Assembly: GCF_020097815.1 (NCBI RefSeq)
Contig: NZ_CP083663.1
Coordinates: forward strand, 434,001 to 498,000
Direction of reading: 5' to 3'
Length of the DNA stretch: 64,000 bases
Source of the DNA: Haloprofundus salinisoli
GTDB taxonomy: Archaea > Halobacteriota > Halobacteria > Halobacteriales > Haloferacaceae
This document shows, piece by piece, positions 46,261 to 50,777 of this stretch. The notes below the pieces were generated by a model, which was not told the DNA's origin, did not search any database, and saw only the letters and a list, made by a program, of their open reading frames with translations. Made by a program: the position numbers and the translations under genes. Position 1 is the stretch's first letter. Each line of letters begins with the position of its first letter.

Positions 46261-47286
46261 ATGACGGTGCCCTGCGTACGCGTGCCCGCCTCCGCGGGCG
46301 AGGAGACCCGACAGGCGCTCGTCGAGGCGGGGGTTGTCGACCACGGTCACGACATCGTCGCCGACGACGGCGTCCTCTTCATCCCCGTGACCGACCCGAC
46401 GGGCGTCCCGGCGGAGTACGAGGTGGTCGACCGCGACGTCCCCACCCGACGACAGCAGCGAACGCCCGCGGATATCCTGGGCTTCGAACCCTCCTACGAG
46501 CGACTCGGCGACATCGTCATCCTCGACGAGGACGACCCCGAACGCGCCCGCGAGATCGCCGACGCGGTGAGGGACTCCGACGTACGCGCGAAGACGGTGG
46601 TCAACCGCGCCTCGAAGATTCGGGGCGAACTCCGCGTCCGCGACTGGGACGTTCTCTCCGGGAGCGTCCCCGACGGACCCTCGGGAGGCAGCGAGACGGA
46701 GTCTCGCCCGCGAACCGAGACGGTCCACCGCGAGTACGGCTACGAGTTCCTCCTCGACATTTCGACGGTGTACTTCTCGCCGCGACTGGCGACCGAACGC
46801 CACCGCGTCGTCGAACAGGTCGAACCGGGCGAACGCGTGTTCGACATGTTCGCCGGAGTGGGGCCGTTCGCAGTTCCGTTCGCCGACGCGGGCGCAGACG
46901 TCGTCGCCGCCGACCTGAACGAAGCGGCCGTCGAGTATCTCCGCGAGAACGCGAGCCGAAACGGGGTTTCGGAGCGCCTCACGGCGATTCAGGGAGACGT
47001 CCGCGAGGTCGGACGCGAGTACGAAAACTGGGCCGACCGCATCGTGATGAATCTCCCGCACAGCGCCGGCGAGTTCCTCGACACCGCCGTCGCCGTCGCG
47101 GGCGACGACTGCGTCATCCACTACTACGATATCCAGCACGAGGACGACCCCTTCGGTCCCGGCGAGCGGGCGATTCGCGCCGCCGCCGCGCCCGAGTACG
47201 AGGTGACCGTGCTGAACGAGCGCGTCGTCCGCTCGTACGCGCCCCACGAGTACAACGTCTGTCTGGACGTTCGGCTCTCCCGCTAA
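46261..47286 (+). CDS. trm5: tRNA (guanine-N1)-methyltransferase Trm5 type
   Basis: A 341-residue SAM methyltransferase modifying G37 of tRNA. N-terminal Trm5 domains (CVRVPASAGEETRQALVEAG; PTRRQQRTPADILGFEPSYE), motif I VFDMFAGVGPFAVPFA, and the substrate motif NLPHSAGEFL are present. An acidic/Ser insert (about 140-155) is a haloarchaeal touch. It lies directly upstream of a tRNA gene, probably by chance. Archaeal Trm5 variants can also act in wyosine synthesis. Confidence 0.9.
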   Translation: MTVPCVRVPASAGEETRQALVEAGVVDHGHDIVADDGVLFIPVTDPTGVPAEYEVVDRDVPTRRQQRTPADILGFEPSYERLGDIVILDEDDPERAREIADAVRDSDVRAKTVVNRASKIRGELRVRDWDVLSGSVPDGPSGGSETESRPRTETVHREYGYEFLLDISTVYFSPRLATERHRVVEQVEPGERVFDMFAGVGPFAVPFADAGADVVAADLNEAAVEYLRENASRNGVSERLTAIQGDVREVGREYENWADRIVMNLPHSAGEFLDTAVAVAGDDCVIHYYDIQHEDDPFGPGERAIRAAAAPEYEVTVLNERVVRSYAPHEYNVCLDVRLSR

Positions 47287-47381: not shown

Positions 47382-47454
47382 GCCGGTGTAGCTCAGCTGG
47401 CAGAGCGATTCCTTCGTAAGGAATAGGCCGAGGGTTCAAATCCCTCCACCGGCT
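47382..47454 (+). tRNA. tRNA-Thr (anticodon CGT)
   Basis: A full cloverleaf: acceptor GCCGGTG pairs with CACCGGC, D arm GCTC...GAGC, anticodon stem ATTCC/GGAAT with loop TTCGTAA (anticodon CGT, reads ACG), T arm GAGGG-TTCAAAT-CCCTC, discriminator T. CCA is not encoded and no intron is seen. A TATA-like CCCTTATTGG lies about 40 bases upstream and a short T-rich stretch (CTCTTTCT) follows. Its 3' end is partly repeated downstream. Confidence 0.95.
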
Positions 47455-47490
47455 CTTTCTGCGACGAACTTCGTGAGGAGCGAAGCGACC

Positions 47491-47514
47491 CGCGAGGGAT
47501 TCGAATCATGGAGC
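47491..47514 (+). repeat. Degenerate copy of tRNA-Thr 3' end (B)
   Basis: CGAGGGATTCGAATC followed by a short GC-rich end resembles the tRNA T arm CGAGGGTTCAAATCC. The match is weaker than copy C but in the same orientation. Confidence 0.4.
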
Positions 47515-47531
47515 GGCTTCGCTCCGACCGT

Positions 47532-47554
47532 GGTTCAACTCCTTCCGCCGGTCT
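47532..47554 (+). repeat. Degenerate copy of tRNA-Thr 3' end (C)
   Basis: GGTTCAACTCCTTCCGCCGG matches GGTTCAAATCCCTCCACCGG (tRNA, 47433 onward) with three mismatches, 99 bases downstream, same strand. It looks like an old attachment-site duplication from integration at the tRNA. Confidence 0.6.
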
Positions 47555-47652
47555 GCGCTGCGCGTACAGTTACACTGAGAACCGTAGTGTCTCTGTATAT
47601 CGCTTCTTCTCCGGAGAACCCCCGTGTAGTTGAGTTTCGCCATGATATTGCC

Positions 47653-47746
47653 GCCACCAGGTAATGGCGACCGTCAAAAGAAGTCTGCCCGTGTGCCTAA
47701 TACGGGGCAGACCCCTTTCTCGGAGTCGCCACCTATGAGACAATAG
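47653..47746 (+). pseudogene. Decayed duplicate of the HalOD1 gene start and promoter
   Basis: GCCACCAGG (47653) and TGTGCCTAATACGGG (47692-47706) recur at 48072 and 48113-48127 with nearly the same spacing. Read from GTG 47693, the remnant encodes MPNTGQTPFSESPPMRQ-stop against MPTTGKIPQ in the intact gene. So this is a broken paralogue of 17 codons with its promoter region; the TATA part is degenerated. Confidence 0.55.
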
Positions 47747-48080
47747 CCAGACTATAAGCACTCATCGGATAATCTAAAAATCAATCTATAATTCGGTGAG
47801 AACGGCGTGTCTCTCCCGAGGTCAAAGCGGTTCGAGACACTTTCGGGTCTCGTCACCGAGCGAATCAGCGATTCGCGAGGTTTGCGAACGCGGTTCGCCC
47901 GATCACCGACGAACTTCCGTCTTCCAAACGACCCCAAAGACACTCGCCTTGCTTCTCTGTAGATGGCCGCGTTCGGTGAGAACTGCAGTGAGTTTGAGAC
48001 TGAAAACGCCCAGTCGGTGAATGGCCCCCTGTTCACCCCCGATCGCGGTTGGCATGTTTGTAGCTAACGTGGCCACCAGG

Positions 48081-48091
48081 CAATTTATCAT
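48081..48091 (+). promoter_or_regulatory. TATA box of the HalOD1 gene
   Basis: CAATTTATCAT centred 28 bases before GTG 48114, which decides the start. Confidence 0.55.
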
Positions 48092-48113
48092 GCCCACGAT
48101 CATACAATCTTAT

Positions 48114-48464
48114 GTGCCTACTACGGGTAAAATTCCACAAAAAATCACGTCGCCCGGCGTCAGCGTCCCGACATACGCGATAGACATAACAGAAACGATG
48201 GCCGATCAGGACACTTCCACGGCTATCATCATGTCAATCGCGGCCATCGAAGGACGCGACCCGCTCGACCTCGACCCGATGTTCGGTGATATCGAGACCG
48301 ATTCGCTGAACATGCTGTTCAACTCCCCATCGAACAATCTGTACGTCGAATTCACCACGAACGGATGGAACGTGCAACTACACGGCTCGGGTGAGGCCAT
48401 TTTCGAGCGTCAGATCTCTCTGTCTGAGGCTTCCGAGTTGAACTCCGAGAAATCGACTGCGTAG
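48114..48464 (+). CDS. HalOD1 output-domain protein
   Basis: A 116-residue protein made of a polar lead (about 40 residues) and one HalOD1 domain: TSTAIIMSIAAIEGRDPLDL, DPMFGDIETDSLNMLF, then VEFTTNGWNVQLHGSGEAIF. HalOD1 is a haloarchaea-specific domain thought to be an output or partner module in signalling. The GTG start gives MPTTGKIPQK and is supported by the TATA box; ATG 48198 would cut the lead. A decayed copy lies 420 bases upstream, so the locus has seen duplication. Confidence 0.75.
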   Translation: MPTTGKIPQKITSPGVSVPTYAIDITETMADQDTSTAIIMSIAAIEGRDPLDLDPMFGDIETDSLNMLFNSPSNNLYVEFTTNGWNVQLHGSGEAIFERQISLSEASELNSEKSTA

Positions 48465-48537
48465 CAACACCGCTGACGAAGTTATTTTGGTATTTCGGTG
48501 GAACAACTCTCGGTTCGGAAAATAGTTACTAGGTCGA

Positions 48538-48723
48538 CTACTGTTGCGATTTGCGGTCTCTTCGTCGGGCATCGACTAACCGCTGGAGCCACGCGATCTG
48601 TTCGCCGCTGATTCCGTCTTCGACTCTGGTTTGTGGGGGTTTCCCGAGTTTGAGTTCTTCACTCGGTCGTCGAGGGTGTCTTTTTGTGCGGCTTGGTTCT
48701 CGACGAGGTGCAGTCTCCCTCAT
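48538..48723 (-). CDS. Small basic protein, function unknown (tentative)
   Basis: A 61-residue ORF rich in Arg and Lys, unlike the acidic haloarchaeal norm; ends GEQIAWLQRLVDARRRDRKS. Its ATG lies about 30 bases after a TATA-like ATCTTTATTTTC on the minus strand (48749-48760), at leaderless distance. The basic composition could mean nucleic-acid binding, or a chance frame. It lies in the accessory-like stretch. Confidence 0.4.
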   Translation of the reverse strand: MRETAPRREPSRTKRHPRRPSEELKLGKPPQTRVEDGISGEQIAWLQRLVDARRRDRKSQQ

Positions 48724-49277
48724 GCATGTCTTTTCTCTTCATTTCTAGAAAATAAAGATTACCCAGACGAGAATAGATGAGTACGCCAGTGGCTGCTCTG
48801 TATTCCGCTGGCACGTGACGTTCTCCGAACGGCGAGCTCGTCGCCCAGGATGTGAGAGCGGTCGGGGGATGGTGACCCCGGACGTAGACACACAACGCAC
48901 GGGGGAGACAGATTGCGCGTCGAGTCCCGCCAAGTCCTACAGGAACCTATCGCGTGGCGGGTACTCCTCGTTCACTACCTCAGGTACCGACATCGAAATG
49001 GTGGGTGTAGTTCGCTGCAGACGGGGCGAGAAGCTACCTTTAGACCCGTTTTCCCCAGCTCTTGCGGAGGTGCGAGTTCCGGTTTCGACCGCGCTGGCCG
49101 GCGATTTCGGTGGTACAACTCCGTCTACCGAGCGGACTTCGGCGGCCGTCCACGGTTCGCGGGCCGACGTAACTCCCCCGGCTCCGCGGCGGTACAGACT
49201 GTCCGGACGAGAGACGCACCGTGCGCTCTCCGCGCACCGTCGTGCTCCTGTCGGGTCGAGTCTTCAAATTCCCGTCG
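48724..49277. other. Long non-coding stretch with a large stem-loop
   Basis: Reading frames on either strand do not look like haloarchaeal protein. It contains a long imperfect stem-loop at 48922-48966. It may be a decayed gene or host a non-coding RNA; I do not recognise RNase P RNA or 7S RNA in it. Confidence 0.45.
48922..48966. repeat. Large stem-loop, candidate structured RNA
   Basis: GAGTCCCGCCA pairs with TGGCGGGTACTC over 11 base pairs with one bulged T. The 22-base loop itself holds a TCCT-AC-AGGA hairpin. Confidence 0.45.
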
Positions 49278-49610
49278 TCAGGGCCACCCGGTCGGGAGTT
49301 CGTCTCGGTGTTCGTCGAGGAGTTCGAGAAGTGGTGTCACCTCGTCGAACCGGGGACCGCGTCGTATCGTCTGATGCTCCTGGTCCCAGTCGACGAACTC
49401 CACCTCGTCGAGTCGCGGCAGGTGGACGTGGTAGAAGTCCTCGGTGGCGACGTTCATCTCGGCCACCTCGGCGGCGAGCCGTTCCAGTTCGATGCCTTCG
49501 TCGGCGACGCCCTCCCGCACCAGAAAGACGAGGATGCGTCGGCGCGATTGGTGGCCCAGCGCACGGAAGAGTCGGTCCAGTGTCGCCGCGCACTGGTCGT
49601 GCTCGCTCAC
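49278..49610 (-). CDS. Winged-helix protein of the DUF7344/ArsR-like type
   Basis: A 110-residue protein. ATLDRLFRALGHQSRRRILV is the classic opening of haloarchaeal ArsR-like winged helices; a recognition-helix region (LERLAAEVAEMN) and wing (HVHLPRLDEVEFVDWDQEH) follow. No ligand domain. GTG 49610 places the domain at the usual distance; a longer form from 49679 is possible. Targets unknown. Confidence 0.75.
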   Translation of the reverse strand: MSEHDQCAATLDRLFRALGHQSRRRILVFLVREGVADEGIELERLAAEVAEMNVATEDFYHVHLPRLDEVEFVDWDQEHQTIRRGPRFDEVTPLLELLDEHRDELPTGWP

Positions 49611-49970
49611 CGGACGATGCCTCCGAACTGTCTCAGTTGGTTCTGCGAGACTGTCATCTGCGTACGAACTACCACACACGGGGCAATCAACTACGACCTA
49701 CATTGATACAGTACTTTTTACCGCCCGATATATCGGCCGCACCCGAGTTTACGCCCTCGACTGTCTCTCCGAACTTCGCGTTCGACCATCTCGACTGCCT
49801 GTCCGCTCCACCGCTTCACCGCCCGTCCGCCGATGGGGCGATGTCGTCACGCTGCCCGACGTACCATCTCGAACGCCGATTCAGTGTCGCCGCCCCGAGT
49901 TATCCGCCTATCCGTGCGCCGACCCGATGCAGACGGTTTATGCGCGCGTGTCGCCGACTCCGACTACACG
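49611..49970. other. Intergenic region before dphB
   Basis: No gene seen. It holds a T-rich block, the perfect palindrome CCGATATATCGG (49725-49736), and near the right end a TATA-like GGTTTATGCG (49935-49944) that suits the dphB start. Confidence 0.5.
49725..49736. repeat. Perfect 12-base palindrome CCGATATATCGG
   Basis: The symmetric AT-rich centre could serve as a protein-binding site or a bidirectional TATA element. It lies 115 bases from the winged-helix start and 235 from dphB. Confidence 0.4.
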
Positions 49971-50777
49971 ATGCTCACGTTCATCGGACTCGGTCTCTAC
50001 GACGAGCGGTCGATAACCGTCGAGGGACGGGAGGCGCTTCGAAGCGCCGACCGCGCGTTCGCGGAGTTCTACACCAGCAAACTCATCGGAACGACCGTCG
50101 AGGAACTCGCCGACCACCACGACGTCGACATCGACGTCAGGGACCGCGCGGGCGTCGAACAAGACGCGGAAGCGATTCTCGACGCCGCGGACGACGGCGA
50201 CGCGGCGTTTCTCACCGCCGGGGACACGATGATTTCGACGACGCACGTCGACCTTCGGCTGCGAGCGCACGAACGCGGCATCGAGACGCGCATCGTCCAC
50301 GGCGTCACCGCGCAGTCGGCGGCGAGCGGTCTCACCGGCCTGCAGAACTACAGATTCGGAAAGGCGACGACGCTCCCGTTCCCGTACGCCCACGGTGCCG
50401 ACGGAACTCCAAAGAGCGTCGTCGACACCATCGGGGACAACCGCGAGCGCGGGCTCCACACGCTCGTCTACCTCGACATCAAAGTCGGCTACGAGCGCGC
50501 GGGCGTCGACGCCGACGACGAGTACATGACCGGCGAGTTCGCCGCGGGCGAGTTCGCCCGCGACTGGGACGGCGACGCGCTGGGCGTCGTCGTCGCCCGC
50601 GCGGGCAGTCCCGAACCCGTCGTCGCCGCCGACCGGCTCTCGGCGCTCGCGGAGCGCGAGTTCGGCGACCCGCTGCACATGCTGATCGTTCCCGCGTCGC
50701 TGCACGATCTGGAAGCGGAGGCGCTTTCGGCGTTCGGCGATGCGCCGTCGGACCTCATCGACGAGAACACCGTTTAG
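49971..50777 (+). CDS. dphB: Diphthine synthase
   Basis: A 268-residue SAM methyltransferase of the tetrapyrrole-methylase fold that builds diphthine on elongation factor 2. Opening LTFIGLGLYDERSITVEGRE and the blocks LTAGDTMISTTHVDL and HGVTAQSAASGLTGLQNY are diagnostic. The Dph6-like ATPase at 9506-10222 would do the last amidation. It is convergent with the archaeosortase gene, a pairing I recall from Haloferax. Confidence 0.93.
   Translation: MLTFIGLGLYDERSITVEGREALRSADRAFAEFYTSKLIGTTVEELADHHDVDIDVRDRAGVEQDAEAILDAADDGDAAFLTAGDTMISTTHVDLRLRAHERGIETRIVHGVTAQSAASGLTGLQNYRFGKATTLPFPYAHGADGTPKSVVDTIGDNRERGLHTLVYLDIKVGYERAGVDADDEYMTGEFAAGEFARDWDGDALGVVVARAGSPEPVVAADRLSALAEREFGDPLHMLIVPASLHDLEAEALSAFGDAPSDLIDENTV

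Follow-up and report, generated by a model that had tools for sequence, protein, structure and literature searches.

Short non-coding units behind haloarchaeal tRNA genes may reflect an undescribed recombination process

We identified a family of short non-coding repeat units at tRNA genes of the class Halobacteria that may reflect an undescribed recombination process. The units occur almost exclusively behind tRNA genes and carry a copy of their own tRNA from nt 53 to nt 73. They are present at some and absent at other orthologous tRNA genes, they form tandem arrays and, as judged by eye, they swap modules. Three inversions end at T-loop cores, and where tail copies are repeated, the one closest to the tRNA is rarely the more degraded. 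We tentatively interpret the tail copies behind a tRNA-Thr gene of Haloprofundus salinisoli as the decayed remains of one such unit, and the units as class-wide non-coding recombination cassettes at tRNA 3' ends, a reading that we consider quite plausible, if still somewhat short of probable.

The window, a stretch of 64,000 nucleotides (C1:434001-498000) from the 3.42 Mb H. salinisoli genome, includes a tRNA-Thr(CGT) gene with a Trm5-type gene upstream (46261-47286) and a TP_methylase-family gene downstream (49971-50777). The features of this locus are listed in Table 1. The initial annotation had reported that the tail of the tRNA recurs in direct orientation 99 nt downstream (start 47532). 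This copy is confirmed, with 17 of 20 positions matching without gaps. Its local score is 28, whereas 300 dinucleotide shuffles of the following 500 nt gave 25 at most. A weaker copy had been placed between the two tails (47494-47508). It is present, but its orientation is inverted rather than direct (GAGGGATTCGAA compared with the reverse complement GAGGGATTTGAA, 11/12). At the Thr locus alone this inverted copy is weak evidence (its score was reached by 4 of 300 shuffles), and we consider it real because of the pattern seen across the family, not because of its own score.

Table 1. Features of the tRNA-Thr locus of H. salinisoli (positions in the window)
Feature	Positions	Strand	Basis
tRNA-Thr(CGT) gene	47382-47455 (ARAGORN); 47382-47454 (Rfam RF00005, 72.1 bits)	+	
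D1, functional tRNA tail (about nt 53-73), source of copies	47433-47454	+	sequence
Linker A, hairpin-forming spacer immediately 3' of tRNA-Thr(CGT)	47455-47493	+	
I, inverted copy of tRNA T-loop and 3' T-stem strand	47494-47508	-	11/12 inverted match
hB, inner hairpin module, constant pattern ..GGAG..CTCCGACCGT	47509-47531	+	
D2, degenerate direct tRNA-tail copy, 99 nt from D1	47532-47553	+	
Variable low-GC flank (HalOD1 ORF, DUF7344 ORF)	47554-49900	.	

The tail copies are specific to tRNA-Thr, as none of 51 other tRNA tails matches the 500-nt flank as well as its own tail does. Equal matches to unrelated tRNAs, which had been proposed as evidence against an integration site, were thus not found among these 51 tails. 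The reported drop in GC content was also reproduced, from about 0.68-0.70 to 0.53-0.58 across about 47.3-49.0 kb. The description of the flank as poor in genes is partly right, as it includes a HalOD1 ORF (48021-48464) and a DUF7344 ORF (49278-49679, minus strand). Broken copies, likewise reported, are present as pieces of the tRNA; elsewhere in the flank, 47601-47800 and 47981-48200 share matches of 15 nt at most. The initial annotation saw no integrase gene in view; the ORF scan made here covered four ORFs. No Rfam match was obtained outside the tRNA (0 up to E 1 in 47456-48130).

Similar arrangements are found behind many other tRNA genes of H. salinisoli. In a set of 52 tRNA genes (ARAGORN without introns, in the fetched loci of this genome), 20 are followed within 500 nt by a stretch that matches their own tail in at least 16 of 21-22 nt; these 20 include two in which the copy is a neighbouring tRNA gene (Asp, Gly) and one (Lys, L031) located in a tRNA cluster. 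For 17 of the 20 flanks, none of the 50-51 other tails tested matches as well. The upstream control yielded only three tails with 16 or more matches, each adjoining other tRNA genes. The architecture common to the flanks consists of tail, linker, inverted T-arm, a hairpin that has constant parts (CAGGGAG ... CGACCGTGG) and tail copy. The cluster that includes L031 (C1:2083000-2086300; also L087) consists of close-set, unusual tRNA genes for Gln, Glu, Pro, Lys, Trp and others.

We built a covariance model from 15 units of H. salinisoli and related genomes, the Thr locus included. Searched against the H. salinisoli genome, it returned 23 matches up to E 10, 19 of them at E ≤0.0144. One of the 19 spans neighbouring tRNA genes and another is an antisense reading of the Thr-locus unit. 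Judged by coordinates, 14 of the remaining 17 follow tRNAs at a short distance; the other three are separated from their tRNAs, Gly(TCC), Val(CAC) and Gln(TTG), by 5 to 31 kb and lie past islands. The Thr-locus unit is matched at contig positions 481494-481555 with an E value of 6.8e-14, this unit being among those from which the model was built.

The distribution of the unit is wide within the Halobacteria. Of 242 class genomes (≥90% complete), 226 contain a match to the model at E ≤1e-6, with 1 to 20 matches each. In a sample of the phylum, 49 of 294 genomes match, and all 49 are from the order of H. salinisoli; among those listed of the 245 genomes without a match, four are in this order and 16 in other groups. 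A sequence pattern for hB was found in 169 of the 242 genomes, and the same pattern written backwards in none among those listed. An exact pattern, which contains no tRNA requirement, detected at least 120 stretches in GTDB genomes. The 80 loci listed for it have haloarchaeal titles except L160 ('Euryarchaeota archaeon'). At these loci, 72 of 81 units are located 33-291 nt behind a tRNA gene on the same strand, and 24 isoacceptor types are represented. Six of the other nine are also behind a tRNA or a tail-like stretch. In four of them (L158, L179, L196, L217) the unit follows an own-tail copy or tail-like stretch of a tRNA missed by ARAGORN (L179 by eye), in L186 it is 415 nt behind tRNA-Leu, and in L194 about 3 kb separate it from the tRNA, a stretch that ends in a tail-like copy before the unit. 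The last three units (L169, L171, L225) are cut by the ends of their loci.

The exact pattern was not found in viral contigs (0 stretches). A looser pattern gave 11 stretches there, one of which is a unit (L268) beside tRNA-Glu. By eye, the other ten stretches and a single further one (L279) are unrelated sequence. On these results a virus-borne repeat was rejected. We found no description of the repeat in the open-access papers that we searched on it and on neighbouring topics, and Rfam has no match for it at the Thr locus.

The limits of the copied segment are sharp. We compared D1 and D2 in 59 of the 72 near-tRNA units (13 with an indel or fewer than 17/21 matches were dropped, which raises the level of agreement but does not create sharp ends). 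Identity per position is 0.86-1.00 from nt 53 to nt 73, the discriminator base, whereas the tails of other tRNA types, used as a control, agree in 0.19-0.77 at positions that vary between tRNAs. At nt 74 the agreement of D1 and D2 drops to 0.56 (control 0.50), and further on it is only slightly above the control; just before nt 53 there is no own-specific agreement. The inverted copy also follows its own tRNA. Its complementarity at the informative positions is 0.97, 0.86, 0.75 and 0.61, compared with 0.55, 0.58, 0.31 and 0.24 for other tRNA types at the same positions.

Alignment of the Thr locus with congeners, which had been suggested as a check on integration, shows that the flank is unstable inside the genus. 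In one relative (G001) the Thr flank is continuous with that of the window as far as its locus was read (81% over 2.7 kb), and similarity runs through I. In three others (G002, G003, G004) the similarity to the window breaks off no more than about 8 nt from where I starts. G003 has about 23 nt in place of about 1.05 kb of the window, a segment that contains I, D2 and the HalOD1 ORF. By eye, units are present behind tRNA-Thr in other genera and families (L093, L094, L095, L097, L109), and none was seen in the flanks of, for example, L098, L100, L101, L102, L106 and L110. A query with the Thr locus matches 113 of 116 genomes of the order. Apart from H. salinisoli, 15 genomes from four families have a match that begins at the tRNA start and reaches at least query position 150, although a shorter match does not imply that the unit is absent (G010, locus L095, has a unit, yet its match stops at query position 108). 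From the pattern of presence and absence among relatives, we infer that the unit was gained, lost or decayed repeatedly behind tRNA-Thr.

The initial annotation interpreted the locus as the scar of one or more elements that had integrated at the tRNA 3' end and then left or decayed. The role of the tRNA 3' end as a place of recombination is supported, and the tail copies and the unstable, low-GC flank agree with a scar; a departed gene-bearing element is not supported. Islands bounded by tail copies do occur at other tRNAs of H. salinisoli, in further agreement with such events. At Gly(TCC), an exact 42-nt tail copy lies 5.5 kb downstream (C1:373238-378756) with no I-hB before it, and a unit is found 143 nt past this copy. 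The stretch at Val(CAC), from C1:2314619 to about 2337000 (about 22 kb), ends in an exact 14-nt copy without I-hB, and a unit follows about 155 nt after it. The Glu(TTC) island (C1:2401169-2410108) has an exact 57-nt tail copy, again without I-hB, and no unit was seen there. Gln(TTG) has an exact 17-nt tail copy, and past it only a weak covariance match (E 6.8e-4) with no D copy of 15 or more. Their tail copies suggest that these four stretches are integrase islands. Two further unit matches in loci where ARAGORN found no tRNA (L121, L122) each lie behind a short tail-like stretch and may, by eye, be outer island ends.

Tail copies of 22 nt and 43 nt are reported for prophage-like insertions of Haloquadratum (PMC3119063), and a partial tRNA-Thr for viruses of the HF1 group (PMC7230728). 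Integrases are recorded to use both the T stem loop and the 3' end of tRNA genes as integration regions, and SNJ2 to have an att site of 14 nt (PMC8371274).

Where both are present, the unit is beyond the island; it is thus outside it and probably older. The ends of the islands differ from the unit and, where both are seen, are on its tRNA side. Islands therefore leave other tail copies, between the tRNA and the older unit, and the Thr copies are not the scar of one lost element. Also against a scar is the presence of the cargo-free unit behind many tRNAs, in this and in other haloarchaeal genomes. Inspection revealed no cargo of its own in the 78 of 81 units whose tRNA side is readable, the other three being those cut by locus ends. 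An integrase scar was rejected as the main account because of the genome-wide and class-wide cargo-free unit and the differing island ends, and we consider it very improbable that gene-bearing elements integrated at tRNA-Thr and then decayed. For annotation, the recurrence of a tail behind a haloarchaeal tRNA does not suffice as evidence of a lost provirus, and the unit can serve as a marker of the original flank when islands are delimited.

Units are also arranged in tandem. Behind tRNA-Lys of one genome (G065) there are four 111-bp units, identical by eye, followed by an older and different unit. In 29 genomes of the genus of G065, a few A and B modules (types grouped by eye) recur behind tRNA-Lys in varied combinations and numbers, and at 28 tRNA-Leu(TAA) loci of the same genus the modules are likewise shuffled and varied in number. 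Among the 57 loci parsed, 12 have no strict I-hB-D segment and 45 have 1 to 6 segments, some of them false. In some Lys arrays (L290 and others of genus g13), distal D copies resemble the tail of another tRNA (..CCCGTCGCGCCCG), as if exchanged.

For 52 of the 81 units (those within 100 nt of a tRNA and with a genus name), the nearest neighbour of linker A is from the same tRNA in 17 cases and from the same genus in 16, and that of hB in 8 and 12 cases (about 4% and 6% expected by chance for tRNA and genus, respectively). The likeness is thus due only in part to descent at one tRNA. By eye, the units behind Lys(CTT) (C1:2727521) and Ser(GGA) (C1:1089928) of H. salinisoli have near-identical hB modules, unrelated linkers A, and I and D2 copies specific to their own tRNAs.

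Module B is inverted between I and D in L365 and L368 (2 of 79 parsed segments), and a third inverted hB was found at tRNA-Asp of G004 (L311). The ends of the inverted piece coincide by eye with T-loop cores in all three cases, so that the segment occurs, if rarely, in both orientations between inverted cores. In the fetched loci, hB is in sense orientation in 159 units, antisense in 2 and unassigned in 7, a count made with a pattern outside which the L368 inversion falls. The seven unassigned, among the 148 units outside L373-L392, are the three cut by locus ends (L169, L171, L225), one with an element between tRNA and unit (L194), and L293, L255 and L238. The exact pattern misses inverted modules whose I ends in C, so the 81 units detected by it are uninformative on orientation.

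Preservation of the tail copies is polar. At a threshold of 17/21, in genes with at least two copies, the first copy surpasses the last in 31 cases, equals it in 31 and is worse in 3; at a threshold of 16 the corresponding counts are 38, 30 and 5. H. salinisoli by itself contributes one gene in each direction, and the genes in these counts cannot be treated as independent. The survey of tail copies covered 308 genes, mostly from loci fetched for holding units, and the proportion with a copy (199/308) is therefore not a prevalence. Matches to a wrong tail in this survey numbered 9 at threshold 17, 34 at 16 and 133 at 14.

Recombination at the T-loop core, beside the functional tail, best unites the copy borders (nt 53 and nt 73) with the intact tRNA, the polarity, the exchange of modules and the inversions at T-loops. 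A site-specific recombinase, probably of the tyrosine type, encoded elsewhere and perhaps not dedicated to this function, would use the palindromic T-loop (TTCRAAT) with the T-stem as its site of exchange. Insertion or duplication beside the functional tail would re-form an intact tRNA and push older tails downstream, where they would decay. Units would be duplicated or deleted when direct cores recombine, and hairpin B would be flipped when inverted cores do. A bolder version, in which the Halobacteria possess an undescribed recombination system of polar, shuffling, cargo-free hairpin arrays with the T-loop as a universal exchange site and an intact tRNA restored at every event, integron-like with the tRNA as the primary site, seems to us possible but rather doubtful.

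Several observations weigh against recombination cassettes. Neither a recombinase nor an autonomous version came to light in searches made by repeat sequence. A length of 100-130 bp is very short for a circular intermediate, and plain integration gives no explanation for an inverted copy that follows its own tRNA. With inverted arms of no more than about 13 bp on either side of a hairpin, the inversions could stem from template switching, and the excess of sense over antisense hB (159 to 2) implies that flipping is rare or selected against. The source of the polarity could be gene conversion by D1.

Errors of replication at hairpins, together with gene conversion, are a serious rival. The units may be a neutral or selfish hairpin satellite, in which palindromic T-arm DNA causes slippage and template switching, and whose spread among polyploid haloarchaeal chromosomes would need no dedicated enzyme, only unequal crossing-over and gene conversion. 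The identical tandem units, the strong differences within a genus, the rare inversions of hairpin loops and the near-identical hB at Lys(CTT) and Ser(GGA) are as expected for such a satellite, and small inversions at hairpins are a subject of papers on chloroplast genomes. However, constant parts are common to different families and tRNA types, and random slippage is not expected to produce copies that end sharply at nt 53 and nt 73. On balance we regard the satellite as rather unlikely.

The units are predicted to fold, and mainly on one strand. With RNA parameters, I-hB-D2 has a lower folding energy on the tRNA-sense strand than on the complement in 67 of 68 distinct units; for hB alone the sense strand is lower in 61 and the complement in 7 (n=68), and for linker A in 39 and 13 (n=52); with DNA parameters linker A has no strand preference (26 and 22). 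Folding energy is below that of mononucleotide shuffles for hB in 57 of 68 and for linker A (first units, other haloarchaea) in 46 of 52. By eye, the inner stems vary with pairing kept (CAGC/GCTG, CGGC/GCCG, CAAC/GTTG), and the sense strand has a tandem G.A mismatch, although the constant part of the selecting pattern itself includes a sense-favouring G.A mismatch.

These features could indicate a structured RNA. The unit would then be a putative conserved pre-tRNA 3' trailer in which I masks D2 or competes for D1 and which acts in folding, processing or termination of the transcript, with arrays arising by ordinary recombination, a proposal that we judge rather unlikely but worth weighing. 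In addition to the strand bias in folding, the G.A mismatch and the inner stems that vary with pairing kept, hB is sense in 159 of 161 assigned units, and I and D2 both track their own tRNA. The strand bias and the complementarity of I and D2 leave room for a role as trailer RNA. Such a role gives no reason for D2 to continue along the acceptor strand to nt 73, a part that is outside I, and many tRNAs and (by eye) orthologues have no unit; fold and orientation, moreover, were measured on units selected by a pattern whose constant part has the G.A motif. With tail copies in alternating orientation, this cargo-free family provides natural replicates of recombination at the same 21 nt in many tRNAs and hundreds of genomes. 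They allow a test of whether tRNA 3' flanks are shaped by an enzyme present throughout the hosts, by an RNA function or simply by the folding of DNA.

The proposed recombination cassettes at T-loop cores can be compared with several known systems. tRNA genes are favourite landing sites of mobile DNA. The att duplications of archaeal tRNA-targeting tyrosine integrases (SNJ2, HF1/HF2-type proviruses, Haloquadratum prophages) are alike in that the tail of the own tRNA is duplicated downstream. In contrast to these, the haloarchaeal unit is about 100-130 bp long, no cargo or integrase is seen between its tails, and it has an inverted copy, two hairpins and constant sequence common to many tRNAs. 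Integron cassette arrays have at their junctions attC sites, imperfect palindromes with a variable inner hairpin, and show polarity and shuffling of modules. The units share an imperfect palindrome with conserved mismatches and a variable inner hairpin, as well as polar arrays and shuffling. Unlike integron cassettes, the modules inspected contain no genes, each copy takes on the sequence of the tRNA that serves as the fixed site, and we know of no integron integrase for tRNA-tail units.

In invertible segments and shufflons, short inverted cores flank a segment found in both orientations. The units share the inverted cores and both orientations, but inversion in them is rare (three cases), and to our knowledge no invertase for tRNA-tail units has been reported. 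REP/BIME and MITE repeats are, like the units, short, non-coding and palindromic and present in several to many copies per genome; the units differ in being behind tRNA genes and carrying the tail of the neighbouring tRNA.

A second type of unit may be present in H. salinisoli. By eye, it occurs behind three tRNA-Arg genes (TCT, L014; CCT, L017; CCG, L025) and tRNA-Ala (L022/L023). Its inverted copy is complementary to the acceptor strand, and its hairpin starts with CGTAGT...
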